In this document: piece after piece, positions 24,852 through 36,177 of the stretch
Layout of the letters: every line of letters starts with the position of its first letter
Position numbering within the stretch: the stretch's first letter is position 1
Source: Elusimicrobia bacterium GWB2_63_16
GTDB lineage: Bacteria; Elusimicrobiota; Elusimicrobia; Elusimicrobiales; UBA9959
DNA length: 46,663 nt
NCBI GenBank assembly: GCA_001799715.1
Contig: MGTZ01000004.1
Coordinates: 1 to 46,663, forward strand
Direction of reading: 5' to 3'
Made by a program: the position numbers and the translations under genes
Notes under the pieces: model-generated
Databases searched by the model: none
The model's input: only the letters and a program-made list of their open reading frames with translations
What the model was told of the DNA's origin: nothing

Positions 24852-24885
24852 GTTTTAGTCCTTGTCGGGTTGAATCTGAGAGTAA

Positions 24886-24894
24886 ATTATATCA
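24886..24894 (-). promoter_or_regulatory. Extended -10 promoter of ychF
   Basis: TGATATAAT on the minus strand, 34 nt before the ychF start codon. It matches the extended -10 consensus TGnTATAAT; no good -35 is seen. Confidence 0.55.
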
Positions 24895-24942
24895 ATTCGC
24901 CGGATGTCCCGCTTGTGCAACGCTGTTTGCTTCTGCTTAACC

Positions 24943-25010
24943 GAGCCGTGGCCGCAGACATAAGAAAAACACCCCGGCGGCCGTGCAGCGGCCGCCGGGG
25001 TGGTCTTTCC
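24943..25010. repeat. Intergenic hairpin repeat, copy 1
   Basis: A 14-bp perfect stem (CACCCCGGCGGCCG / CGGCCGCCGGGGTG, 24970-25002) with loop TGCAG. It is preceded by GTGGCCGCAG...AAGAAAAAC and followed by GTCTTTCCTG. A clearly related element with the same flanks occurs at 27587-27656. It may act as a terminator on the + strand. Confidence 0.6.
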
Positions 25011-25094
25011 TGGTATTGCCTGGCCGTCACCTGAGGGGAGGCCCGCGAAGAGCGCTGAAAAGTTATTTAAGGATCGACTTGGCGGAATAGCGGG

Positions 25095-25973
25095 TCATAT
25101 CCCGATCGCGGCCAGACCTTTTTTAAATTCTTCCTTGGAGAATTCACCGGCGTCATCCGAACTCCAGCCGACGGACTTGTATAATATTCCCCCATCCTTC
25201 ACGAAATAAAATGTAGGAGAGATTCCAAGCATGGAAAACCCTGGAAAGTCCGTGTTCTTTCTGGCGATATATACCGCGTCATAATTAAGACTTTCTTTTG
25301 CGGACTTGACCCCTTCAGAATCGAAGGTCCTGGTCAACATGAAACCACTTGAGCGGAAGATCGGGCCAAGAGTGTCGTCCGCGAGAAGCGTCTTGGCCGC
25401 TATCGTGGCAAATTTGCACTCTGGATGCATGAACATCACTATCTTTGCGCCCTTTTGTGGCAATCGTTCAAGCGTCGCCCGGGCTCCCTGTCCGGAAATC
25501 CGATAAATCCACCAGCCTGTGGCAGCCGGATCTCCGTTAACAGATATTTGTGGCAGCGTCGGTTGCGGATGAGAGGGGAACTCTTCGGCGAATTTCATTG
25601 CTTCGTCAAAAAGCCCTGCATTCACTAAAACGGTGAATACGCGGTCAAGGTTTTCTTCGCTATACTTGTTTCTGCGAAGTTTTTCGTAAAAAACAGAGCG
25701 GGCTTTTAGCGCATAGTTCTCATTGTCCGGGAGGTATCCGGATATTTTCCATAGGGCTTCAAAAAGCCCTTCCACGGCGGCATCCGAGTATGTTCCCATG
25801 CGCTCCCGTGAAAGTTGTGAAGGTTTGATCGAATCGGAGATCTTTGCGATGCGGGCCATATCCCTGTTGCGTCCAGAGGCGGAGACATCTTCGGATATGC
25901 TTTTAAATTTAACGTCCGGGCTGACGCATCCGAAAAAACACAGTAATGAAAACAGAACTATAATTGATTTCAT
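25095..25973 (-). CDS. Putative lipoprotein with a thioredoxin-like C-terminal region
   Basis: A 292-residue protein with an N-terminal lipoprotein signal (MKSIIVLFSLLCFFGC, lipid-anchoring Cys16). The middle part is helical. The C-terminal third has a thioredoxin-like order: a strand KIVMFMHPECKFA carrying a single Cys where CxxC would be, and later SPTFYFVKDGGILYKSVGW with the cis-Pro-like position. With only one Cys it could not act as a normal disulfide oxidoreductase. Base composition is visibly more AT-rich than its neighbours, suggesting later acquisition. No promoter is obvious; AAGG lies 6 nt before ATG. Confidence 0.6.
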   Translation of the reverse strand: MKSIIVLFSLLCFFGCVSPDVKFKSISEDVSASGRNRDMARIAKISDSIKPSQLSRERMGTYSDAAVEGLFEALWKISGYLPDNENYALKARSVFYEKLRRNKYSEENLDRVFTVLVNAGLFDEAMKFAEEFPSHPQPTLPQISVNGDPAATGWWIYRISGQGARATLERLPQKGAKIVMFMHPECKFATIAAKTLLADDTLGPIFRSSGFMLTRTFDSEGVKSAKESLNYDAVYIARKNTDFPGFSMLGISPTFYFVKDGGILYKSVGWSSDDAGEFSKEEFKKGLAAIGI

Positions 25974-26059
25974 GTCAACCTTTTGAATGAGGGGGCGGGT
26001 TTACAGGGAGAGGGTCAGCTTTTGCGGCGATATTATCTGGAAAGGCGTGGGTCTCCGTA

Positions 26060-26917
26060 TCAGGCTTCATCGTTCACAGTGTTACGCAGCACGCCGAGCC
26101 CCTCCACGGCCACCTCGCAGACATCGCCGGCCTTCATGTAGAGCGGCGGCTTGCGCGCCATTCCGACTCCGGGAGGAGTGCCGGTAGCGATAACGTCTCC
26201 GGGGGAGAGGGTCATGGCCTGGCTGAGGAAAGCTATGGTGTGCGCCACGTCGTGCACCATGTCGGCGGTGGAAGCGTTCTGTCGCACCTCGCCGTTGAGC
26301 CGCGTCTCGAGTCTAAGACCCGCGCCTCCTGGCGGCAGTTCGTCTGCGGTCACGAAGAACGGGCCCATGGCGCCGCTGCTGTCGAAGTTCTTCCCTATGG
26401 TCCACTGGGGCGTCTCAAGCTGGTAATCGCGGATGGAACCGTCGTTGAGAATGGTATATCCCGCCACGTGCTCCAACGCTTTTTCCACGGGGATATGACG
26501 GCCGCCCTTGCCTACGACAACGGCTAGTTCGCCTTCATAGTCGAACTGGACGGAAACTTTCGGACGCACCAGCGCGGCACTGTGCCCGACCAGGCTGGAA
26601 GGAAAACGCACAAAAACGGTGGGGCGGGGCGGCGCCGCGATGCCGGCCTCCTGGCCGTGTGCGCGGTAGTTCACACCGAGGCAGAGTATCTTTCCCGGGT
26701 GGTCCACAGGCGGCAGATAATCGATGATATCCAGGTTCACCGCCGCGCCCTTACGGAGCTGCGCGGCCGCCCGCGTCAGGCCCTGCGCTCCCTCCCGGAT
26801 GAGCGCGGAAAGCCCGCCAGGATACCCGGGTTCGTCCCCAAAAAAACCATGCGCGGCGCTTCCGTCGAGAACGGCCAGTCCCTCGCGCCCTTTAAGGGCG
26901 AACCTTATGAATCTCAT
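26060..26917 (-). CDS. Fumarylacetoacetate hydrolase (FAH) family protein
   Basis: A 285-residue member of the FAH/acylpyruvase/HpaG superfamily. The N-terminal part has KILCLGVNYRAHGQEAG. The metal-binding core shows QFDYEGELAVVVGK and NDGSIRDYQ, and the C-terminal region has PGDVIATGTPPGVGMARKPP with LKAGD-type ending (MKAGDVCEVAVEGLGVL). Family members cleave C-C bonds in beta-diketo acids or act as oxaloacetate decarboxylase; the substrate here is unclear. GC-rich like the core genome. It has no ribosome binding site, but an extended -10 ends 6 nt before ATG. Confidence 0.85.
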   Translation of the reverse strand: MRFIRFALKGREGLAVLDGSAAHGFFGDEPGYPGGLSALIREGAQGLTRAAAQLRKGAAVNLDIIDYLPPVDHPGKILCLGVNYRAHGQEAGIAAPPRPTVFVRFPSSLVGHSAALVRPKVSVQFDYEGELAVVVGKGGRHIPVEKALEHVAGYTILNDGSIRDYQLETPQWTIGKNFDSSGAMGPFFVTADELPPGGAGLRLETRLNGEVRQNASTADMVHDVAHTIAFLSQAMTLSPGDVIATGTPPGVGMARKPPLYMKAGDVCEVAVEGLGVLRNTVNDEA

Positions 26918-26923
26918 GCGATA

Positions 26924-26932
26924 ATTTTATCA
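26924..26932 (-). promoter_or_regulatory. Extended -10 (TGATAAAAT) with leaderless spacing before the FAH gene
   Basis: On the minus strand TGATAAAAT is followed by TATCGC and then ATG. Transcription would begin at or beside the start codon. No Shine-Dalgarno sequence is available. Confidence 0.5.
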
Positions 26933-26990
26933 AAATCGGGTCTTCTAGACGGTCAATTCGGGATCTCTTGTGGAAATCTGGGTAAAATTT

Positions 26991-27136
26991 AAAACCGCGC
27001 CTCTGCTGGCGCGGTTTTGCTCTGTTGCGGGAAAAGCCTTTTTAATCGGGACACTAGCAGTTCTTTAAAAAAATAACCGCCGGGCAAGCCGGCGGTCATT
27101 TTTTGTCGCCAAATCCAGACTGAGAAAATTTGGCGG
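26991..27136. repeat. Left flanking repeat of the accessory region (two hairpins plus tRNA 3'-end-like sequence)
   Basis: It contains hairpin A (AAAACCGCGCC / GGCGCGGTTTT, loop TCTGCT, 26991-27018), hairpin B (ACCGCCGG / CCGGCGGT, loop GCAAG, 27076-27096) and the 15-nt sequence GAGAAAATTTGGCGG at 27122-27136. All three occur in the same order and orientation at 35826-35988, next to tRNA-Glu. Just to the right, a T-loop-like GGTTCGAA (minus strand) precedes GACCGCCA, so this looks like a decayed copy of a tRNA 3' end. Confidence 0.65.
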
Positions 27137-27203
27137 TCTTTTCAGGATGAAGTTCGAACCTTCTTCGCGCAACATCCTGAGGTAACTTTATAAATACCGC
27201 TTT

Positions 27204-27482
27204 CTAGCCGTTAGAGCAGCGGTAGGCGGATCTTATCCGCGAGATGTCGTCGCAGGCGTGGCCACGAAGCGCGGCCCCGCACTGCTCCTTGCCGCGAGAA
27301 GGCGGTTCGCAGGGCTCCGGCACTACGCGCCGTCGCACCTGCTCCAAAGGTGTTCTGCATCTTATCAACACCTCCGATGCGCGGCCGGCCGGCCCCAAAC
27401 AGGCCTTACCCGGCCGCTCCCGTCCGCCTTCGGCGTCCGTACAACGCAGAAAATTATTTCCCGCGCCCACTGCAAAGAGCAA
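27204..27482 (-). pseudogene. Possible Cys-rich gene remnant
   Basis: An open frame of up to 92 codons on the minus strand with only a TTG start and no ribosome binding site. Its C-terminal half looks protein-like and Cys-rich (CEPPSRGKEQCGAALRGHAC, then DDISRIRSAYRCSNG). It may be the end of a broken gene or chance coding in GC-rich DNA. No family is recognised. It occupies part of the about 1 kb gene-poor stretch at 26.9-27.95 kb. Confidence 0.25.
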
Positions 27483-27586
27483 ATTGAACGATTTAATTCT
27501 ATAAAGTATCTGCCCTCGCTCGCCAGCGGCGCGCCGCGCACCGCTCGCGGCTCGGGCCTGTTGTTGTTATCTATCTCAGGCTGACC

Positions 27587-27656
27587 GGTGGCCGCAGTAT
27601 TAAAGAAAAACCACCCCGGCGTCCGCTGCTGCGGCCGCCGCGGTGGTCTTTCCTGT
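27587..27656. repeat. Intergenic hairpin repeat, copy 2
   Basis: Related to the element at 24943-25010: GTGGCCGCAG, AAGAAAAACC, an imperfect 16-bp stem (27611-27626 with 27631-27646, two mismatches) and GTGGTCTTTCCTG. The stem has decayed relative to copy 1. Confidence 0.55.
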
Positions 27657-27956
27657 TAATGTTGGGCAGCCACCGGGGGGAGCGGGAACGGGGACCATAA
27701 GGAGAGGGGCCAGGCCGGGCGCGCCTGGCTCCCTGGTGGCCGTCGCCCAATTGAAGCCTTTTGATCGGTTGCTTAGGAAATCGGAACGTTTCCGTGGACT
27801 TATAGGAGACTCCAAATAAAGAACATTTTTTTGTATGAAAATCTTTTCAGAAGGGGACTTATTCGTATTCATTGGGGTAGGGTGGACGTGGAATGGCATG
27901 TAAATTGCTCTGTGTTTCGTGTGGCTTTGTGAGTACCGTAATTTAAGGAGAAAGGC

Positions 27957-29726
27957 ATGCTGATATTAGGAATCAATTCGGTTTATCATGAGAGTTCCGC
28001 CTGTATTCTGAAGGATGGGAAATTGATTGCCTTTGCGGAAGAGGAACGTTTTAACCGGATTAAACACGGGAAGGAAGCTCTTCCTTCCAATGCGCATGAA
28101 TTGCCGGTTAACAGTATCCGTTACTGCTTGAGTAAAGCGAATGCTTCCCCAAAGGATATCGCCCATATCGCCTATTCCTTCAACCCGCTGAAGAGGTCTA
28201 CTGTCAGGTGGCCCAAAGAAGAATATGTGGCAATGGATTGGGGCTCTCCCGAAGCGGAGCGTGTATTTCTGGATTCGCTGAAAAAGGTCCAGGTCAAGCT
28301 TGAGGAACTGGGTTTCAATTCCAAGATACACTGGATAGACCACCAGGTCGCTCATGGCGCTTCGGCATACTATTATTCGCCCTATAAGGAGTCGGCGGTG
28401 CTGAGCCTGGATGGGATAGGAGAAAGCGATTCAACAGCGCTGATGTACGGTAATAATGAGTCTCTAATCACGCTGGAGACCATTTCCTATCCGAATTCCA
28501 TCGGATTTATGTGGGAGAAGTTCTGTAAATTCCTGGGGTTTTCCGAATACCACGCCTGCAAGTTGATGGGGCTTGCGGCATATGGCGATCCAGGAGTATA
28601 TAAAAAAGAGTTCGCCGCCATCTTGAAATTGCGTGAGGATGGTTCATTCTCGATGGATAACGATATCCTTAAATTCCGAAGCGCGGATTTCACTTCGCTC
28701 GAGAACCTGTTTGGTTTCGTGAAAAGGGAGAGAAAAGATCCGCTGCTTAAGCACCACGAAAATCTGGCCGCCTGCTTACAGGAAAAGACGAACGAGATTG
28801 TGCTGGGATTGGCCCGGAAACTTCATAAGGCCTGTCCTTCTTCAAATATCTGTCTTGCCGGCGGCGTCGCGTTGAACTGCGTAAGCAACAGCCACCTTCT
28901 GGAGAATGGGCCGTTCAAGAGCGTCTTTGTCCAGCCAAGCGCCAACGATGCCGGGACTTCGCTGGGGTCGGCCAGTTATGTGTGGCACCACCTGTTAAGG
29001 AACGAAAAAAGTCCGGCAGTTTCCAAGCAGGTTTATTACGGACCTGACTTCTCCGAGGGGGAGTATGAAGAGGCCTTGTGTAAAAATGGTCTGACATATA
29101 CCTATCACAAAAACATCGAAGAGGTGGTGGCCAGATTAGTGAGCGAGGGGCAGGTTGTAGGTTGGTTCCAGGGCGCGATGGAATTCGGCCCCCGTGCTTT
29201 GGGAAATAGAAGCCTTGTCGCCGATCCCAGGAACAAGAAGATACGCGAGATCCTTAATGTTAAGGTTAAACACCGCGAACTTTTTCGGCCGTTCGCGCCG
29301 AGCGTGCTTGAAGAGAAGGCCTCCGAATGGTTCAAGGTTCAAGATGGTGCATACCCAAATTACTTCATGCTGATGATAAATCCGGTCGCGGAAGATAAAG
29401 CCGGAGTCATCCCTTCCGTGGTTCATGTTGATGGAACGGCCAGGATACAGAAAGTGAGCCGGGAATCCAATCCGAAATACCACAAGCTAATCAGCCATTT
29501 CTACGATATCACCGGTGTGCCTCTGGTCTTGAACACGTCGTTCAACGACGACGAGCCAATTGTTTGTTCCCCGTATGATGCTATTAATACGTTCTGTAAG
29601 ACGCGGATCGATTATCTGGCCCTCGGGAATCTGCTTGTAGAGAGAAAAGCCCAGACAGCAGCGTTGAGGCTGGACCGGCAGGAACCGGCGCCGCAAGACA
29701 ACACAAAGGAGGACAACCGGGAATGA
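27957..29726 (+). CDS. Carbamoyltransferase, NodU/CmcH/TobZ family
   Basis: A 589-residue, two-domain carbamoyltransferase. The N-terminal Kae1-like domain begins ILGINSVYHESSACILKDG and has the metal ligands H129, H133 (DHQVAHGA) and D152 (LSLDGIGESDS), matching the pattern in TobZ. The C-terminal YrdC-like domain has FQGAMEFGPRALGNRSLVAD and HRELFRPFAPSVLEE; NTSFNDDEPIVCSP is the family's terminal motif. These enzymes use carbamoyl phosphate and ATP, via carbamoyl-adenylate, to carbamoylate hydroxyl (rarely amino) groups of natural products. AAGGAG lies 8 nt upstream. It is the first gene of the lower-GC cluster. Its TGA overlaps the next ATG. Confidence 0.92.
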   Translation: MLILGINSVYHESSACILKDGKLIAFAEEERFNRIKHGKEALPSNAHELPVNSIRYCLSKANASPKDIAHIAYSFNPLKRSTVRWPKEEYVAMDWGSPEAERVFLDSLKKVQVKLEELGFNSKIHWIDHQVAHGASAYYYSPYKESAVLSLDGIGESDSTALMYGNNESLITLETISYPNSIGFMWEKFCKFLGFSEYHACKLMGLAAYGDPGVYKKEFAAILKLREDGSFSMDNDILKFRSADFTSLENLFGFVKRERKDPLLKHHENLAACLQEKTNEIVLGLARKLHKACPSSNICLAGGVALNCVSNSHLLENGPFKSVFVQPSANDAGTSLGSASYVWHHLLRNEKSPAVSKQVYYGPDFSEGEYEEALCKNGLTYTYHKNIEEVVARLVSEGQVVGWFQGAMEFGPRALGNRSLVADPRNKKIREILNVKVKHRELFRPFAPSVLEEKASEWFKVQDGAYPNYFMLMINPVAEDKAGVIPSVVHVDGTARIQKVSRESNPKYHKLISHFYDITGVPLVLNTSFNDDEPIVCSPYDAINTFCKTRIDYLALGNLLVERKAQTAALRLDRQEPAPQDNTKEDNRE

Positions 29727-30763
29727 TATTTCGAAACATAACAGAGGTGATCGGTAATACGCCGCTGGTGGAAGTTAAGAATCACTTCGCGCTAAGCGGC
29801 GCGTCTGCGCAGATCCTGCTCAAGTTGGAATGGTTCAACATGGGCGGGAGCACCAAGGACCGAATTGCGTTAAACATGGTCAAAGAAGCTGAAAAAAATG
29901 GGGCTCTGCGTCCCGGGATGACGATTATAGAATCCTCTTCCGGCAACACCGCTATCGGCTTGGCTATCGTGGCCGCGCAACGAGGGTATCGGTTTGTCGC
30001 CATCTGCGATAGGCATCTTCCCATCGGCAAGAGGAACAGGCTGCTTGCGCTGGGCGCGCAGATAGTTTTTATCCCGCCGACACCGGAAGGTATGGACACC
30101 GTCGAGATTCGGATAGCCCTGGCTCGGAAATTGGCGGCCAGGATTAAAGGCTGTGCGACACTGGAACAATACGGCAACAAGGCTAATGTGGCCGCGCATT
30201 ATGCCGGAACGGGGGCGGAGATATTAATGGATACCGCCGGGCAATTGGATGCCTGCGTGATATTTTGCGGCACCTGTGGATCGGTTTCCGGAATTGGGCA
30301 GGCGTTAAAGGAGCGCAATCCGCAAATCCGGGTAATAGCGGTAGAGCCGGAAGGCTCCGCTATATTCGGGGGGCAGTTGAAGCCATACCTTATTGCAGGA
30401 GGAGGCCTTTCGTTCGTGCCGTCCATCCTTGACAGAAAAGTTGTGGATGAGGTCCATAGGGTTTCGGACCTTGAGGCGTTCCGCATGTCTAGGGAGTTGG
30501 CCGGCGTGCAAGGTATCATGGTGGGGTCTTCAGGCGGTGGAGTCGCGCATGTCGCCATGAAGTTGGCAGCGAGTTGTGGACCGGGTAAGCGGATAGTGGG
30601 TGTCATCCCGGATATCGGGGACCGCTACATAGACTCGCTTTTCGACGATGAGTGGTTGAGAGCCCACGGCCTGCAGGAGTCCATTCTGCAGCGAACGGCA
30701 GACCATGAGCTCGTTGCGGCGGCAATGGCGGAGGGATGCAATGTCAACGCAATTGAACGGTAA
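29723..30763 (+). CDS. Cysteine synthase-like PLP enzyme (fold type II)
   Basis: A 346-residue beta-family PLP enzyme of the CysK/CBS/SbnA type. It has EVIGNTPLVEV, the PLP lysine K45 in FNMGGSTKDRIA, substrate loop IESSSGNTAIGLA, and phosphate loop CGTCGSVSGIGQ. Where CysK has NPGGSVKDR it reads NMGGSTKDR. Such enzymes replace the beta-substituent of O-acetyl- or O-phosphoserine; in secondary metabolism they make 2,3-diaminopropionate precursors (SbnA) or O-ureidoserine (DcsD). The acceptor here is unknown. No O-acetyltransferase is in the cluster, so O-phosphoserine or a carbamoylated serine as substrate is conceivable (inference). It is translationally coupled at both ends. Confidence 0.85.
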   Translation: MIFRNITEVIGNTPLVEVKNHFALSGASAQILLKLEWFNMGGSTKDRIALNMVKEAEKNGALRPGMTIIESSSGNTAIGLAIVAAQRGYRFVAICDRHLPIGKRNRLLALGAQIVFIPPTPEGMDTVEIRIALARKLAARIKGCATLEQYGNKANVAAHYAGTGAEILMDTAGQLDACVIFCGTCGSVSGIGQALKERNPQIRVIAVEPEGSAIFGGQLKPYLIAGGGLSFVPSILDRKVVDEVHRVSDLEAFRMSRELAGVQGIMVGSSGGGVAHVAMKLAASCGPGKRIVGVIPDIGDRYIDSLFDDEWLRAHGLQESILQRTADHELVAAAMAEGCNVNAIER

Positions 30764-31955
30764 GAAGACTTTGGTGCTCTTTTACAACCGGAGATATCAT
30801 CCGGTCGTCATCAGGAAACTCCTGGAGTCCGGGGCGGCCAAAGCCGACACGGTGATAGTCAATCTTGGCGAGTTCCCGCGTTCGGAAAGTCTGACGGCGG
30901 AGATACGAGCTGCAGGATCGGAGAATGTCGTCAATATCGACGGGCGTAAAATATTCTCAGAGAATTATATTTCATGGGCTATCCGGGCGAACGCGTGTTA
31001 TCAGGAGAAATATTATCTGAGTGCCGCTATAGCCAGGCCGTGCCTGGCCGAGATCACTGCGTCGCTCGCAAAGCGGGACGGCTGGGATACGGTGGTCCAC
31101 GAGTTCCGCGGCAACGACATGGTCAGGATGAATATGGGATACCAAGCCCTTGAAACCGACTTCCTGCCGGCGCTGTCCGCGTTCGATATTGATGAGGCGG
31201 AAGTGAAGAAGACCGCCGACAGCCTTAAGATACCGGAAGAGTTCGGCACATGCAACCCTTTTTCCGTGAGCGACAATATCTGGGGCAGGAGCATAGAGTG
31301 CGGGCCTCTGGAGGACCTAGAGATCCCGGCCGCGGCGGAATCATACGGGGTATGCCGGCGTGTTGCTGGCGAAGTGTCTGAGCCTGAGCTTGTTTCTATA
31401 CGGTTCCGCGACGGGGTCCCAGTAGAACTTAACGGGAGCCGATGTCCGTTGCATGAGATAATCGAGGCCCTTAACAAAAAAGCCGGGGTGCGCGGTATTG
31501 GGCGTTATGATCTGGTCGAAGACGGGACTGTAGGTTTTAAAACGCGTGCCATATACGAGCATCCAGCTGCCGCATGCATCATCGCTGCCCATAAGGAGCT
31601 CGAGCACCTTGTGCTGAACAAGCATGAGCTTGAGTTTAAAAATTCGCTGGATCAGCTCTTTTCGAAGAAGCTCTATGACGGCCTGTGGTTCGATCCAGTT
31701 ATGGAGCATGTCAAGGCCGCCTTAGCGAGCCTCAACCAGTTCGTTACAGGGGAGATCGTGCTGGAACTGTCGGATAAGACTTTTGAAATAGTGAAAAGGT
31801 CTTCTCCATACTCGCTGTATAAAGGCGCCGTTTCTGTCTACAATTACGGACACCGTTTCTCGTCCGGAGATGCGGCCGGTTACGGAAACACTTTCAACCT
31901 GCATACGAGCTGGACCAATAAAATGAGGAGGATGATATGTCGACAAAATTCCTGA
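30741..31955 (+). CDS. Argininosuccinate synthase homologue lacking the ATP-pyrophosphatase loop
   Basis: A 404-residue ArgG-family protein. The ATG at 30741 has GGAGGG 5 nt before it, preferred over an in-frame ATG at 30705. Recognisable ArgG parts are ARPCLAE, GNDMVRMNMG, NPFSVSDNIWGRSIECGPLE, GIGRYDLVEDGTVGFKTRAIYEHP, YDGLWFDP and KRSSPYSLY (quoted in pieces). The PP-loop AYSGGLDTS of true ArgG is replaced by FYNRRYHPV (residues 14-22), and the HGATGKGND loop is shortened to HEFRGND. Normal citrulline adenylation therefore looks impossible, while the amino-acid-binding parts persist. It may be a repurposed enzyme or a partner subunit. It overlaps both neighbours. Confidence 0.8.
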   Translation: MSTQLNGKKTLVLFYNRRYHPVVIRKLLESGAAKADTVIVNLGEFPRSESLTAEIRAAGSENVVNIDGRKIFSENYISWAIRANACYQEKYYLSAAIARPCLAEITASLAKRDGWDTVVHEFRGNDMVRMNMGYQALETDFLPALSAFDIDEAEVKKTADSLKIPEEFGTCNPFSVSDNIWGRSIECGPLEDLEIPAAAESYGVCRRVAGEVSEPELVSIRFRDGVPVELNGSRCPLHEIIEALNKKAGVRGIGRYDLVEDGTVGFKTRAIYEHPAAACIIAAHKELEHLVLNKHELEFKNSLDQLFSKKLYDGLWFDPVMEHVKAALASLNQFVTGEIVLELSDKTFEIVKRSSPYSLYKGAVSVYNYGHRFSSGDAAGYGNTFNLHTSWTNKMRRMICRQNS

Positions 31956-32740
31956 TGTGTACTCCGGAGTATTATGATATTGAATACGTGATCAATCCCT
32001 GGATGGACCTGAAGAACAAGGTGGACAGAAAAAAAGCCGCGGCCCAGTGGGAGGGGCTGATAGAAGTCCTGCAGAAGCACGGTGCCAGTGTCGAGATCAT
32101 CCGGGGCGTTCCAGGACTGCCGGATATGACGTTCGCTGGCGACTGCGGAATCCTGGTTGACGGCACCTTTTTGGCGAGCAATTTCAAACATCCTGAGCGT
32201 CAGCCTGAGCGCGAGCACTACCTGAGCTGGCTGCGAAAAAAAAATTACAAAATAAAAGAGATCCCGGCAGATGTTTATTTCGAGGGGCTCGGAGATGTGA
32301 TCATCTCGGGGAAACGCGTGGTGTTCGGCCATGGGCCGAGATCCCATAAGGATGCAGAGGGCTGGATAAAAAAGACCTTTCCTCAGCTGCAGGTCGTTAC
32401 GGAGCTTCAAATACGCGACGACAGGTTCTTCCACCTGGCTATGGGCGCAGGGCTGCTGGATGAGGATACCATCATCTATTACCCGAAGGCCTTCTCCACC
32501 GCGGACACTGAGAAGATCCGCAGCCGGTTCCGGCACGCCATCGCGGCGGATGATTACGACGTCCTAGAGAATATCGTGTGCAACAACATCGTGATCGGCA
32601 GGAAAGTGATTTTCCACGACTGCTCCATCGAATTAAGGCGCCGGTTGGAAAAGCTTAACTTCGAGGTCCTTACCTGCGATGTCAGCGAGTTCAAAAAGAG
32701 CGGGGCAAGCCTGCGCTGTCTGGTTTTGAACCTGAACTAG
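31937..32740 (+). CDS. Amidinotransferase/DDAH-fold guanidine-modifying hydrolase
   Basis: A 267-residue pentein-fold enzyme. Family motifs are in place: PDMTFAGDCG (D63, D69), YFEGLGDVI (E116, D120), the catalytic His in FFHLAMGAG (H166) and the nucleophile Cys261 in GASLRC near the C-terminus. It belongs with dimethylarginine dimethylaminohydrolase, arginine deiminase and arginine:glycine amidinotransferase. The length and the LRC ending favour the hydrolase type, which turns a guanidine into a ureido group plus an amine. GAGGAGG lies before ATG and the start is inside the argG-like gene. The substrate is presumably the cluster's own intermediate. Confidence 0.82.
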   Translation: MSTKFLMCTPEYYDIEYVINPWMDLKNKVDRKKAAAQWEGLIEVLQKHGASVEIIRGVPGLPDMTFAGDCGILVDGTFLASNFKHPERQPEREHYLSWLRKKNYKIKEIPADVYFEGLGDVIISGKRVVFGHGPRSHKDAEGWIKKTFPQLQVVTELQIRDDRFFHLAMGAGLLDEDTIIYYPKAFSTADTEKIRSRFRHAIAADDYDVLENIVCNNIVIGRKVIFHDCSIELRRRLEKLNFEVLTCDVSEFKKSGASLRCLVLNLN

Positions 32741-32774
32741 ATAAGCGGACGTTTGGCCGGAGGTGCTACACAAT

Positions 32775-34058
32775 ATGAGCAAGAATCACGGAACGGTGGA
32801 AATGAAAGGAACGATCCTGATTATAGATCCTGTGCTGACCGGGACGAAGATCGCCCAAGAGGCGAAAAGACGCGGGTTCAACACCACAGCAGTAATCGCC
32901 TGGCGGGAGATTCCTTCTTTTGCCAAAAACACATTCAGCCGGGAGCTGTATGACGAGGTCCTTGAACTTGAGGATGCGGATGATTTGGGGGAACTGATTT
33001 CGAGCAAGGTAAAATCCGGGAAAATACGGGCCGTTTTTCCGGGGACGGAGTCCGCTGTGGAGCTTGCGGAAAGAGCACGCGCTCTTCTTGGGTTTAAAAC
33101 GAACAACCCTGGATCGACCCAGTTAAGGCGGAACAAATATCGGATGCATATGGCGCTGCGCAAAAGCGGGCTTCGTATACCCGCCCAGATAGAAGCCTCA
33201 AGTTTCGAAGAGATACTTGGCTGGATCGAGAAGGATTCTGGGAACGAGATATCTTGGCCGGTCGTCGTTAAACCGCTGCAGAGCGCTGGAACGGACGGGC
33301 TGTCTTTTTCATCTGACCTTGGGGAATTGCGGCGGCACGCGGAAAGTATTCTCGCTTCGCGGGATATGTTCGGGAATCCGAACACGAAAATTCTTGCGCA
33401 GTCATTCGTCCCGGGCACGGAGTACGTGGTGAACACGATTTCTTCCGATGGGCGGCATCGCATCACTGACTTCTGGCGGTATACGAAAAGGACCGTGCCC
33501 GGTGCGGGGATGATCTATGATAGGCAGGACCTGTTGCCGGTCTCGGATTGTTCGCGGCTGGGGATTCAGGATTACGTGTTTCGGGCACTGGATTCGCTTG
33601 AGGTCCGGTTTGGCCCGGCGCACTCCGAGGTCATGATGACCGGGAACGGACCGGTTCTTATAGAGACGGCATCCCGCATACAGGGGGGGATAAACACAGA
33701 ACTCCTAGATGCCTGTACTGGGACTAATCAACTGTCTGCGGCTTTTGATGTGGCTTTGAATGAAAGCGCGTTTGACGGGATACGGGTGAACGAAGCGAAA
33801 CTGAACAGTCACGCTTGCTGGATCAATCTTATTTGTGGCGAGTCTGCCCGCGTCAGGAAATTGTCCGACTTCCAGGAAAAGATCCGCGCTTTGAAAAGTT
33901 GCTTCTCGCTGTATGTATCAGTTAAAGAAGGGCAACTTATCCCGAAAACGATCGATCTGATGTCGTGCCCGGGGGTGGTCTTCCTTATGCACGATAACCC
34001 CGGGCAGATTGAGGACGATTATCTCGCGCTCAGGAAATTAGAGAAGGAACACTACTAG
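32775..34058 (+). CDS. ATP-grasp ligase
   Basis: A 427-residue ATP-grasp protein (start ATG 32775; an in-frame GTG lies 12 nt earlier and overlaps the GGAGG). The N-terminal Rossmann-like domain is TILIIDPVLTGTKIAQEAKR. The ATP-grasp core has WPVVVKPLQSAGTDGLSF (the Lys and Gly-rich loop), QSFVPGTEYVVNT and the metal site HSEVMMTGNGPVLIETASRIQGG in parts (Glu, Glu, Asn/Arg positions). Domain order resembles L-amino-acid ligases (BacD type) and DcsG. These join a carboxylate to an amine through an acyl phosphate, so dipeptide formation or ring closure is likely. It lies 34 nt downstream of the hydrolase gene. Confidence 0.85.
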   Translation: MSKNHGTVEMKGTILIIDPVLTGTKIAQEAKRRGFNTTAVIAWREIPSFAKNTFSRELYDEVLELEDADDLGELISSKVKSGKIRAVFPGTESAVELAERARALLGFKTNNPGSTQLRRNKYRMHMALRKSGLRIPAQIEASSFEEILGWIEKDSGNEISWPVVVKPLQSAGTDGLSFSSDLGELRRHAESILASRDMFGNPNTKILAQSFVPGTEYVVNTISSDGRHRITDFWRYTKRTVPGAGMIYDRQDLLPVSDCSRLGIQDYVFRALDSLEVRFGPAHSEVMMTGNGPVLIETASRIQGGINTELLDACTGTNQLSAAFDVALNESAFDGIRVNEAKLNSHACWINLICGESARVRKLSDFQEKIRALKSCFSLYVSVKEGQLIPKTIDLMSCPGVVFLMHDNPGQIEDDYLALRKLEKEHY

Positions 34059-34099
34059 GAGGGATCCGCCACATCAGTGCTGCTTATTGGCGTCGTGCT

Positions 34100-34984
34100 A
34101 TGTGGGATATTTCTATGGGATACTTTGCGTTCGCTGGCATTGCTGTTATGTGTTACGGAACAATCGACTTTTGCTATAAGCATGCGGCAAACGCTGGGTG
34201 CCGGCCACTTAGCGTTTTATCGCGTTCGACGCTCGTGACGGCTCTTTGTTGTTCGCTGAGCTGTTTTGGCTGGCTTTCCAAGGAGTTCCCGCTCCGGGGC
34301 ATCATTCTTTTCGCCTGTCTGGATTCCTCACTCTTCCTAATTGGAACAGCTTCTAAGATCTCAGCACTGAAACATTTGCCGACCGCGGTGGTGCTTCCTG
34401 TTACGAAAATGAGTGCCATCCTTGTGATCCTGATTTCAATACTTGTCATGAATGAGCGTCCGACATTTTACCAGAGTATCGGGCTCGGGTTATCGGTGGT
34501 TACTGTCCTCTTAATAATAAAAGAGGTTTGTGTCATTCGCACTATTCCTAAACTGAACTCTGGGATCCTGTTCTCAGTTCTTTCTATGCTGGCCGTTACT
34601 GGATCCATGTTCACAGCGAAATTCGCTTCCATATCGGTTCCGAAATATCAATTTATGACAGTCTCATACGGCATGGCATATCTGCTCACTAACGCGATTT
34701 TACTGCATCCTTGGCAGCAGATCCGGAACCCCGGTGGAGAGGCCATGCTGAGGCCAATGTATTGGCGATATGCCGCTATCATAGGGCCAATAAACGCGAT
34801 AGGTTTCTATTGTATGCTGAAATCTCTGGAAAGCGGTCCAATAAGTCTGGTCCAAGGAATTTTGTGCCTTTCGATGGTACCGCCAATACTGCTTTCAATC
34901 CTAGTGCTCAAGGAAAAACTAACGATGCGGAAATCGCTGATAGTTGCATCGGGGGTGCTTTCGCTGATTTTGATTAAGTTTTGA
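34100..34984 (+). CDS. EamA/DMT-superfamily transporter
   Basis: A 294-residue membrane protein with about ten hydrophobic helices in two repeats, as in EamA drug/metabolite transporters (AFAGIAVMCYGTIDFCYKHA in helix 1; the conserved helix 9-10 region GILCLSMVPPILLSILVLKE). It probably exports the cluster product. GGAGGG precedes by about 35 nt and no closer ribosome binding site is seen; Met6 (34115) is an alternative start. An overlapping out-of-frame hydrophobic ORF at the 5' end is judged a shadow. Lower GC than the core genome. Confidence 0.85.
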   Translation: MWDISMGYFAFAGIAVMCYGTIDFCYKHAANAGCRPLSVLSRSTLVTALCCSLSCFGWLSKEFPLRGIILFACLDSSLFLIGTASKISALKHLPTAVVLPVTKMSAILVILISILVMNERPTFYQSIGLGLSVVTVLLIIKEVCVIRTIPKLNSGILFSVLSMLAVTGSMFTAKFASISVPKYQFMTVSYGMAYLLTNAILLHPWQQIRNPGGEAMLRPMYWRYAAIIGPINAIGFYCMLKSLESGPISLVQGILCLSMVPPILLSILVLKEKLTMRKSLIVASGVLSLILIKF

Positions 34985-35211
34985 GGGTCACTCTGGCAAA
35001 ACCATCGGCTTTTGTCATTTGAGGGCTGGTACATGGTCAAAAGATGATCTATTGATAACCTAGTTTCAAAGGGAATCAGACATTCCCTGGAGTAATGCCT
35101 CCAATCCGGAAATGGCCTGTTTACAGGTCATTCGCAATTCGGGATATGCAGCTTCAAAGCGTGGGTTGAAATATTGCAATGGGATGTTTTTGTAGAATAG
35201 AAACGGAGAGT

Positions 35212-35739
35212 ATGCCTATAAGAGAAAATTTTTTAAGTAGCGAACGCCTGTGCTTTGGCTTCTGGCGTGAGTCGGACATAGACCTGGCCTGGGAGCTTTT
35301 TGGCGATTCCGATATCACCAAGTACGTAGGCGGGCCTTTCTCCAGGGCGCAGGTTTTGGAACGGATTCGTTCCGAAATGTCCTCGCGCGAGTGCATTGGC
35401 GTGCAGTACTGGCCACTGTTCCGCCGGGACGATGGCGAATTCGTGGGCTGTTGCGGGCTGAAATCCTGTCCGGAGCCCGGGTGTTATGAGATGGGCTTCT
35501 ACATCAAGCCAAGCATGCAGGGCAAGGGGTATGCGTGGGAGGCCGCTTGTCGCGTCATAGAATATGCGTTCTCCAAAATTGGCGCCAAGGCTTTGTTCGC
35601 CGGGCATAGTCCACACAACGAGGCATCCCGTCTTCTGCTTGGCAAGCTAGGGTTTGTCTATACATCTGATGTGTTCTATCCTCCAACTGGCCTGATGCAC
35701 CCTTTGTATCGGTTGGATCAGAAACTGCAGAAAAAATAG
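35212..35739 (+). CDS. GNAT N-acetyltransferase, RimJ/RimL type
   Basis: A 175-residue acetyltransferase starting at ATG 35212 with GGAG just upstream; the longer in-frame start at 35179 adds an unlikely peptide. It begins LSSERLCFGFWRESDIDLAW, the RimJ/RimL-type N-terminus. The acetyl-CoA loop reads PSMQGKGYAWEAACRVIEYAF (Q/R-x-x-G-x-G/A reads QGKGYA). It ends with an aromatic acceptor-site segment LGFVYTS. It lies 227 nt after the transporter, so it may have its own promoter. In this context it could tailor the product or protect the producer; a stand-alone role is possible. Confidence 0.75.
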   Translation: MPIRENFLSSERLCFGFWRESDIDLAWELFGDSDITKYVGGPFSRAQVLERIRSEMSSRECIGVQYWPLFRRDDGEFVGCCGLKSCPEPGCYEMGFYIKPSMQGKGYAWEAACRVIEYAFSKIGAKALFAGHSPHNEASRLLLGKLGFVYTSDVFYPPTGLMHPLYRLDQKLQKK

Positions 35740-35825
35740 ACTATTCTTGTAGAGGCTGCGGCTTACCTGGAAGTATTAGTGTAACAAGCGCTTTAACGAG
35801 CGTTACTCGGCAGCAGCGACAAATT

Positions 35826-35988
35826 AAAAACTGCGTCTCTGATGACGCGGTTTTTGTTGTTTCCGAAGAAGCCTTCTTCATCGGGCGTGTAATGGCAAAA
35901 AATAACCGCCGGACAAGCCGGCGGTCATTTTTTGGGCAAGCTAGCGGATGTTTCTTGCGCCAATTTTTCCCGGGAGAAAATTTGGCGG
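35826..35988. repeat. Right flanking repeat of the accessory region, next to tRNA-Glu
   Basis: Hairpin A' (AAAAACTGCGTC / GACGCGGTTTTT, loop TCTGAT, 35826-35855), hairpin B' (ACCGCCGG / CCGGCGGT, loop ACAAG, 35905-35925) and GAGAAAATTTGGCGG (35974-35988). The order and orientation are as in the left copy at 26991-27136. Here the 15-mer includes the last bases of tRNA-Glu with its CCA. The hairpins lie just 3' of tRNA-Glu on the minus strand, so they are probably its terminators. Confidence 0.65.
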
Positions 35989-36058
35989 CCCCTACGGGAT
36001 TCGAACCCGTGATCTCTGCCTTGAGAGGGCAGCGTCCTAACCGCTAGACGAAGGGGCC
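35983..36058 (-). tRNA. tRNA-Glu (anticodon CUC)
   Basis: Complete cloverleaf: acceptor GGCCCCT / AGGGGCC, anticodon stem CTGCC / GGCAG with loop CTCTCAA (anticodon CTC, reads GAG), T-arm ACGGG-TTCGAAT-CCCGT, discriminator G. The 3' CCA is encoded. It lies 46 nt downstream of tRNA-Thr and is probably on the same transcript. Confidence 0.96.
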
Positions 36059-36104: not shown

Positions 36105-36177
36105 AGCCGACTATCGGGTTCGAACCGATGACCTGCTGTTTACAAAACAGCTGCTCTACCAGCTGAGCTAAGTCGGC
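36105..36177 (-). tRNA. tRNA-Thr (anticodon UGU)
   Basis: Acceptor GCCGACT / AGTCGGC, D-arm with AGCTGGTA loop, anticodon stem GCTGT / ACAGC with loop TTTGTAA (anticodon TGT, reads ACA), T-arm ATCGG-TTCGAAC-CCGAT. CCA is not encoded, unlike the neighbouring tRNA-Glu. Confidence 0.95.

Follow-up and report, generated by a model that had tools for sequence, protein, structure and literature searches.

The D-cycloserine (dcs) cluster brings together a CysK-like enzyme, a guanidine-acting enzyme, an ATP-grasp protein and an exporter. Genes of these types were found next to each other in Elusimicrobia bacterium GWB2_63_16 (assembly GCA_001799715.1), on a stretch of 46,663 nucleotides of contig MGTZ01000004.1, hereafter the window. 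They lie at 27957-35739, on an island inserted at a tRNA-Glu gene, where six genes form an operon followed by a seventh gene. Unlike dcs, the island lacks an arginase-fold protein, a racemase and an acyltransferase of the dcs kind, and it encodes a NodU/TobZ-type carbamoyltransferase (CTase) and an ArgG-like protein in addition. In our judgement there is about an even chance that this is a horizontally acquired orphan operon, which makes and exports a small carbamoylated antimetabolite derived from amino acids, probably a dipeptide.

The pathways of dapdiamide and diaminopropionate (DAP) peptides share with the operon a DdaF-related ATP-grasp protein and a CysK-like enzyme with an SbnA-like tail region, whereas here the DdaF and SbnA models score below their cut-offs and SbnB is absent from the genome. 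CTases of the CmcH/NodU type carbamoylate hydroxyls through a carbamyl-adenylate (available part of PMC6022934), and one NodU-type CTase is required for the amino acid FVG (excerpts of PMC8067088 and PMC8064604). The gvg and gvg-like clusters resemble the operon in that they are small, include a NodU-type CTase and are presumed to yield an amino acid, whereas CysK, ArgG, DDAH and ATP-grasp proteins are not named in the excerpt of PMC8064604. By family, not by direct sequence comparison, none of the other island proteins was recognised as GvgA, GvgB or GvgC, and no other operon protein fell into an unassigned Pfam or NCBIfam family. A published cluster with this gene set was not found in the open-licence literature. 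An earlier reading of the DNA made without database searches (the sequence-only reading) had held that the combination matches no cluster that it could name, and neither this literature nor the loci examined gave a match.

An island inserted at the tRNA-Glu gene

All seven open reading frames (ORFs) are intact and lie on the plus strand (Table 1), and the families assigned by Pfam and NCBIfam agree with the families and position named beforehand. The CTase and CysK-like genes overlap by 4 bp (ATGA), the CysK-like and ArgG-like genes by 23 bp, and the ArgG-like and DDAH-like genes by 19 bp. From the end of the DDAH-like gene there are 22 bp to GTG 32763 of the ATP-grasp gene, or 34 bp to ATG 32775, which has GGAGG upstream; a gap of 41 bp then precedes the EamA gene. 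The overlaps suggest joint expression. Because 194 bp (start 35179) or 227 bp (start 35212) separate the GNAT gene from the EamA gene, its membership is weaker. The translationally coupled operon of the sequence-only reading is retained for the six packed genes, and the GNAT gene stands apart and may not belong to it.

The lower GC that had been noted was confirmed by gene GC, GC at third codon positions (GC3) and the GC profile. The genes at 27957-35739 have a GC of 0.47-0.56 and a GC3 of 0.52-0.70, and six genes outside the insertion have a GC3 of 0.78-0.92. Two genomes of the same genus, G204 and G266, reveal the empty site. When the G204 locus was matched to the window by BLAST, the matches stopped at 24863 and restarted at 35977; in G204 itself 44 bp separate the two parts. 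The distance from the start of the YchF-type GTPase gene to tRNA-Glu is 62 bp in G204, 57 bp in G266 and 11131 bp in the window. The order in G204 is the YchF-type GTPase gene, these 62 bp, tRNA-Glu, tRNA-Thr and a metallo-beta-lactamase-like gene. The segment is an island gained by horizontal transfer, with its insertion point at the 3' end of tRNA-Glu; the boundary there was seen with an empty site in two of the six relatives examined. Judged from these two empty sites, the acquired unit is larger than the interval first described and extends over about 24864-35976.

An assembly chimaera, or a decaying insertion without function in this organism, would also fit a segment that is compositionally foreign, flanked by repeats and unique in its class, in an assembly of 62 contigs that is 91% complete. 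We regard this as highly improbable: all seven ORFs are open with regular overlaps, one boundary of the segment abuts the 3' end of a tRNA gene, a usual site of insertion, and the right repeat is similar to sequence of the host next to tRNA-Asp.

Table 1. Features of the island and its insertion site (window coordinates; aa, amino acids)
Feature	Coordinates	Strand	Remarks
NodU/TobZ-type CTase	27957-29726	+	589 aa; PF02543 173 bits, PF16861 227 bits, both above cut-off
Pyridoxal phosphate (PLP) fold-type II beta-replacement enzyme (CysK/CBS/SbnA-like)	29723-30763	+	346 aa; PF00291 224 bits
ArgG-like protein without PP-loop	30741-31955	+	404 aa; PF20979 201 bits; PF00764 from profile position 14, past the PP-loop
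DDAH/ArgZ-fold cysteine hydrolase	31937-32740	+	267 aa; PF19420 above cut-off
ATP-grasp L-amino-acid ligase-like protein	32763-34058	+	431 aa counted from GTG 32763; likelier start ATG 32775
EamA/DMT-type transporter, presumed exporter	34100-34984	+	294 aa; PF00892 66 bits, two stretches
GNAT acetyltransferase, membership uncertain	35179-35739	+	186 aa counted from 35179; likelier start ATG 35212; PF13302 92 bits
Inserted segment (island), about 11.1 kb	about 24864-35976		between YchF-type GTPase gene and tRNA-Glu; from BLAST of G204
tRNA-Glu (CTC), apparent insertion target	35983-36058	-	followed by tRNA-Thr 36105-36177 (-)
ORF in insertion, no family	25095-25973	-	Pfam, NCBIfam
ORF in insertion, FAA hydrolase	26060-26917	-	Pfam, NCBIfam
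Repeat, left copy, two terminator-like stem-loops	26985-27105	+	76% identical to right copy
Repeat, right copy, upstream of tRNA-Glu 3' end	35821-35934	+	76% identical to left copy

The ArgG-like protein and the DDAH-like hydrolase

Aligned without a gap, the ATP-pyrophosphatase loop (PP-loop) AYSGGLDTS of ArgG reads FYNRRYHPV in the window protein, and the loop TGKGNDQVR reads EFRGNDMVR and is two residues shorter. Both SGGLDT and TGKGND are present in 27 of 27 comparator ArgG proteins, and the window protein has neither. The comparators are 19 of the best from the phylum, one from Saccharibacteria, two from plasmids, the host's own and four from viral contigs, with five loci that hold the window excluded. 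The ArgG loci inspected amount to three of the 96 plasmid records with a match (L023, L024 and L065) and at most 20 of the 141 matching phylum genomes, and since these are few, other losses of the PP-loop are possible. A frameshift behind the missing loop was rejected, as none of the three forward frames over about 30600-31150 contains such a motif.

The NCBIfam models of argininosuccinate synthase score below their cut-offs (PRK00509, 277.9 versus 334 bits; TIGR00032, 250.9 versus 268.2 bits). The predicted structure has a mean pLDDT of 76.6 and a pTM of 0.80, with the last 43 residues poor, and a Foldseek search with it recovered the full two-domain ArgG fold, the nearest structures being argininosuccinate synthases and the nitrile synthetase ArtA. 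Argininosuccinate synthases (PDB 4u7j, 1vl2 and 2nz2) resemble the window protein in the fold over both domains, with 25-36% identity, from which the window protein departs in both loops and in its scores below the family cut-offs. They also share its residues Y87, R99, N125, D126, R129, S175, S184, E260 and Y272, which we take to be the citrulline contacts of ArgG; all nine are present, and eight of them are invariant in alignment A1. With the PP-loop and an intact TGKG motif gone and this presumed citrulline pocket retained, the ATP side is lost and the amino-acid side kept.

Judged from these motifs, the window "ArgG" is no normal argininosuccinate synthase. Ordinary ArgG chemistry for this homologue was dropped because the ATP site is absent; the sequence-only reading had not remarked on the motifs. 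The host owns an ordinary ArgG on another contig (G000:C41), with both motifs and 28% identity to the window protein, so the window copy is not the housekeeping one. It is probably a repurposed, ATP-independent ArgG-fold protein, and may serve either as an enzyme acting on a ureido amino acid without ATP or as a binding partner. ArtA (PDB 9leh and 9lei) likewise employs the ArgG fold outside arginine synthesis; this ArgG-related nitrile synthetase is cited in the available part of PMC13060819.

The loss of the PP-loop and the shortening of TGKG, with the fold and the presumed citrulline pocket kept, would also suit a pseudoenzyme. The ArgG-like protein would then be a structural or binding partner, and the remaining cluster an ordinary non-ribosomal dipeptide pathway. 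We consider this unlikely, as the kept polar pocket residues suggest a ligand, and a gene retained in the middle of an operon amid overlaps is probably needed.

An ArgG-related protein of a Sulfobacillus thermotolerans plasmid (pY0017; L065, 4881-8076) is the reverse of the window protein, with the PP-loop kept and the GKGND side changed. Its gene is followed by genes for a TauD-type dioxygenase and an EamA protein; a tyrosine recombinase adjoins, and the plasmid is typed as conjugative. This is possibly a small mobile pathway.

In the DDAH-like protein the catalytic triad C261/H166/E116 is invariant in all five aligned sequences (the window protein and four relatives), and D63, R88 and R135 are also conserved. 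It thus shares the fold family, the triad and these residues with ArgZ and the dimethylargininases. The guanidine pocket, in contrast, is altered from Asn to D69 and from Asp to A168 against all four relatives: FAGD stands in place of FAAN, FSAN or FCSN, and HLA in place of HLD. The protein scores below the NCBIfam cut-offs, and a single-sequence model of it was poor (pLDDT 44.7) and was not used. In arginine deiminases the guanidino group is held by an Asp two residues past the catalytic His, and in DDAH a Lys at that position gives space for the dimethylamino group (both from the available part of PMC11659421). Judged from our alignment, in which neither deiminases nor human-type DDAH are represented, A168 would leave space for an N-substituent.

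The nearest solved relatives of the hydrolase are ArgZ structures, and its nearest plasmid relatives are actinobacterial dimethylargininases, with 36% identity at best. These relatives would fit a module of DDAH/ArgZ and ArgG for arginine/citrulline conversion or salvage. Such a role is quite unlikely, however, for an ArgG-like protein without the ATP loop on an island without ArgH, in a host that has a normal ArgG; both altered pocket residues of the hydrolase differ from every relative aligned, and the CTase, ligase and exporter would be left unexplained. On the Pseudonocardia plasmid pFRP1-1 (L041, 3962-7082), a dimethylargininase gene lies within a non-ribosomal peptide synthetase (NRPS) locus with P450 genes adjacent. 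In a Streptomyces locus (L031), a dimethylargininase adjoins an ATP-grasp protein only 20% identical to that of the window.

The carbamoyltransferase, the PLP enzyme and the ligase

The CTase contains both family domains along with the conserved HxxxH, EFGPRALG and NTSFN motifs, and its solved relatives in the PDB include NovN, GdmN and TobZ. Among the matches listed, the best plasmid relatives are from Mycetohabitans (48-49% identity) and Streptomyces clavuligerus (46%), versus 44% for the best other copy of the phylum; a total of 328 plasmid records match, of which three, outside the 30 listed, reach 60-80%. In viral contigs only one CTase fragment was found (38%). On plasmid pBRH01 of Mycetohabitans rhizoxinica (L027, 14001-29674), a CTase 49% identical to that of the window is followed by a methyltransferase gene and a large NRPS gene.

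A locus for O-carbamoylation of a surface glycan or another compound, in which the CTase would modify a sugar and the other genes would be passengers with no relation to it, was considered as well. CTases with identities of about 37-44% occur widely in the phylum, and one plasmid relative of 39% identity lies among glycosyltransferases. No glycosyltransferase was found on the island (ORFs, Pfam), four of the five other operon genes belong to amino-acid enzyme families, and the overlaps suggest that the genes are expressed together. We therefore take this explanation to be very unlikely.

None of the NCBIfam models listed reaches its cut-off with the PLP enzyme (CBS, 306 of 510 bits; cysKM, 282 of 344; SbnA, 276.6 of 349.95; cysK, 272 of 351), and O-ureido-L-serine synthase is among the solved relatives of this enzyme (PDB 3x43, E 7.9e-58). 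A diaminopropionate route via SbnA and SbnB was rejected, as the SbnA model scores below its cut-off and PF02423 is lacking in the genome. The ATP-grasp protein passes only NF005543 (PRK07206, 'hypothetical protein'), with 333.8 bits against a cut-off of 302, and the DdaF model gives 191.6 of 840 bits. Among solved structures, an L-amino acid ligase is the best match to this protein (PDB 30vh, E 3.8e-65).

In S. clavuligerus (L032), a CysK-like and an ATP-grasp gene, 33% identical each, lie about 10 kb apart amid NRPS-like ORFs. Four loci of the same order as the host (L036-L039) hold ATP-grasp domains of 30-32% identity; in three of the four the domain lies in an open frame of about 1860 aa and is possibly part of a multidomain enzyme.

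Proposed pathway, distribution and flanking repeats

The steps put forward earlier, namely a serine-derived beta-carbon, carbamoylation and ATP-grasp ligation, are plausible, and from the gene content we infer the following reactions and product. The PLP enzyme would take an activated serine and attach a nucleophile to its beta-carbon. From a guanidino amino acid with an N-substituent, the DDAH-like cysteine hydrolase would produce a ureido amino acid, which the ArgG-fold protein may bind in its retained citrulline pocket and either transform or hand on without the PP-loop. The CTase would form a carbamoyl-adenylate and then carbamoylate a hydroxyl, the ATP-grasp ligase would join two amino acids, and the EamA protein would export the product. 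The GNAT protein, if it is a member, could act in tailoring or protection. Rather unlikely, and offered only tentatively, is a more specific form of this pathway, in which the product belongs to a new class of carbamoylated ureido/guanidino dipeptides and the ArgG-fold protein is active without ATP via its citrulline pocket, partnering the altered DDAH-like hydrolase.

If the proposed operon function is right, it would contribute a compact route to a small polar metabolite in a lineage from which few such products are known to us. It would also provide a test case for the reuse of the ArgG fold, where the ArtA line makes nitriles and the window line has lost the ATP loop and kept the amino-acid pocket.

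Searches covered the phylum in depth and, beyond it, plasmids, phages, viral contigs and one scan of genome contigs; most genome loci compared carry about 1.5 kb of flank. Of 235 genomes in the class, only the host genome was found to have the ArgG-like protein (E <= 1e-63), and among 294 phylum genomes the best other match by E-value is an ordinary ArgG of 34% identity. The DDAH-like protein was found in one of 59 genomes of the family. With the ArgG-like protein as query, genome contigs returned one ordinary ArgG only (31%), and viral contigs returned no match with the single sequence and four ordinary ArgGs with an alignment as query. With its first 170 residues as query, no match above 37% was present among the matches listed. 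Neither an anti-phage system nor a phage gene set is indicated, as the seven proteins have no PADLOC match and, among the phage matches listed, the CTase reaches only 31% and the ArgG-like protein 33% at best.

Several results weigh against a dedicated, acquired pathway. No second locus with the gene set was found in the phylum, plasmids, phages or viral contigs, so the co-occurrence by which the sequence-only reading proposed to check the cluster was not observed. Any one locus compared outside the window holds at most two of the seven genes. With matches in 67 of 340 genomes of the phylum at E <= 1e-100, the CTase family is common there, and finding a member of it says little by itself. An SbnB-type enzyme (PF02423) has no match in the genome, and eight of 14 control genomes have one. 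The island contains no regulator and no NRPS, and Pfam finds no integrase among the ORFs of the insertion. In the other four of the six relatives, the metallo-beta-lactamase-like gene is in a different setting without synteny, and these are uninformative on the empty site.

The two minus-strand ORFs at 25095-26917 are not at this place in the two empty-site relatives. The 31-nt core of the flanking repeat occurs only at its two places in the window, and none was expected from 100 shuffles. The same genome has a third copy (85%) next to tRNA-Asp at another place (G000:C13:3015-3130, L048). Rather than an attachment site, the repeat is therefore probably a terminator module that accompanies tRNA genes of the host. 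A candidate decayed tRNA-Glu beside the left repeat is weak, its score being reached by eight of 500 shuffles. By eye, two GC-rich hairpins that resemble each other were seen at about 24965-25015 and 27610-27660 of the window, ending in GGTGGTCTTTCCTG; the insertion may have arisen stepwise.

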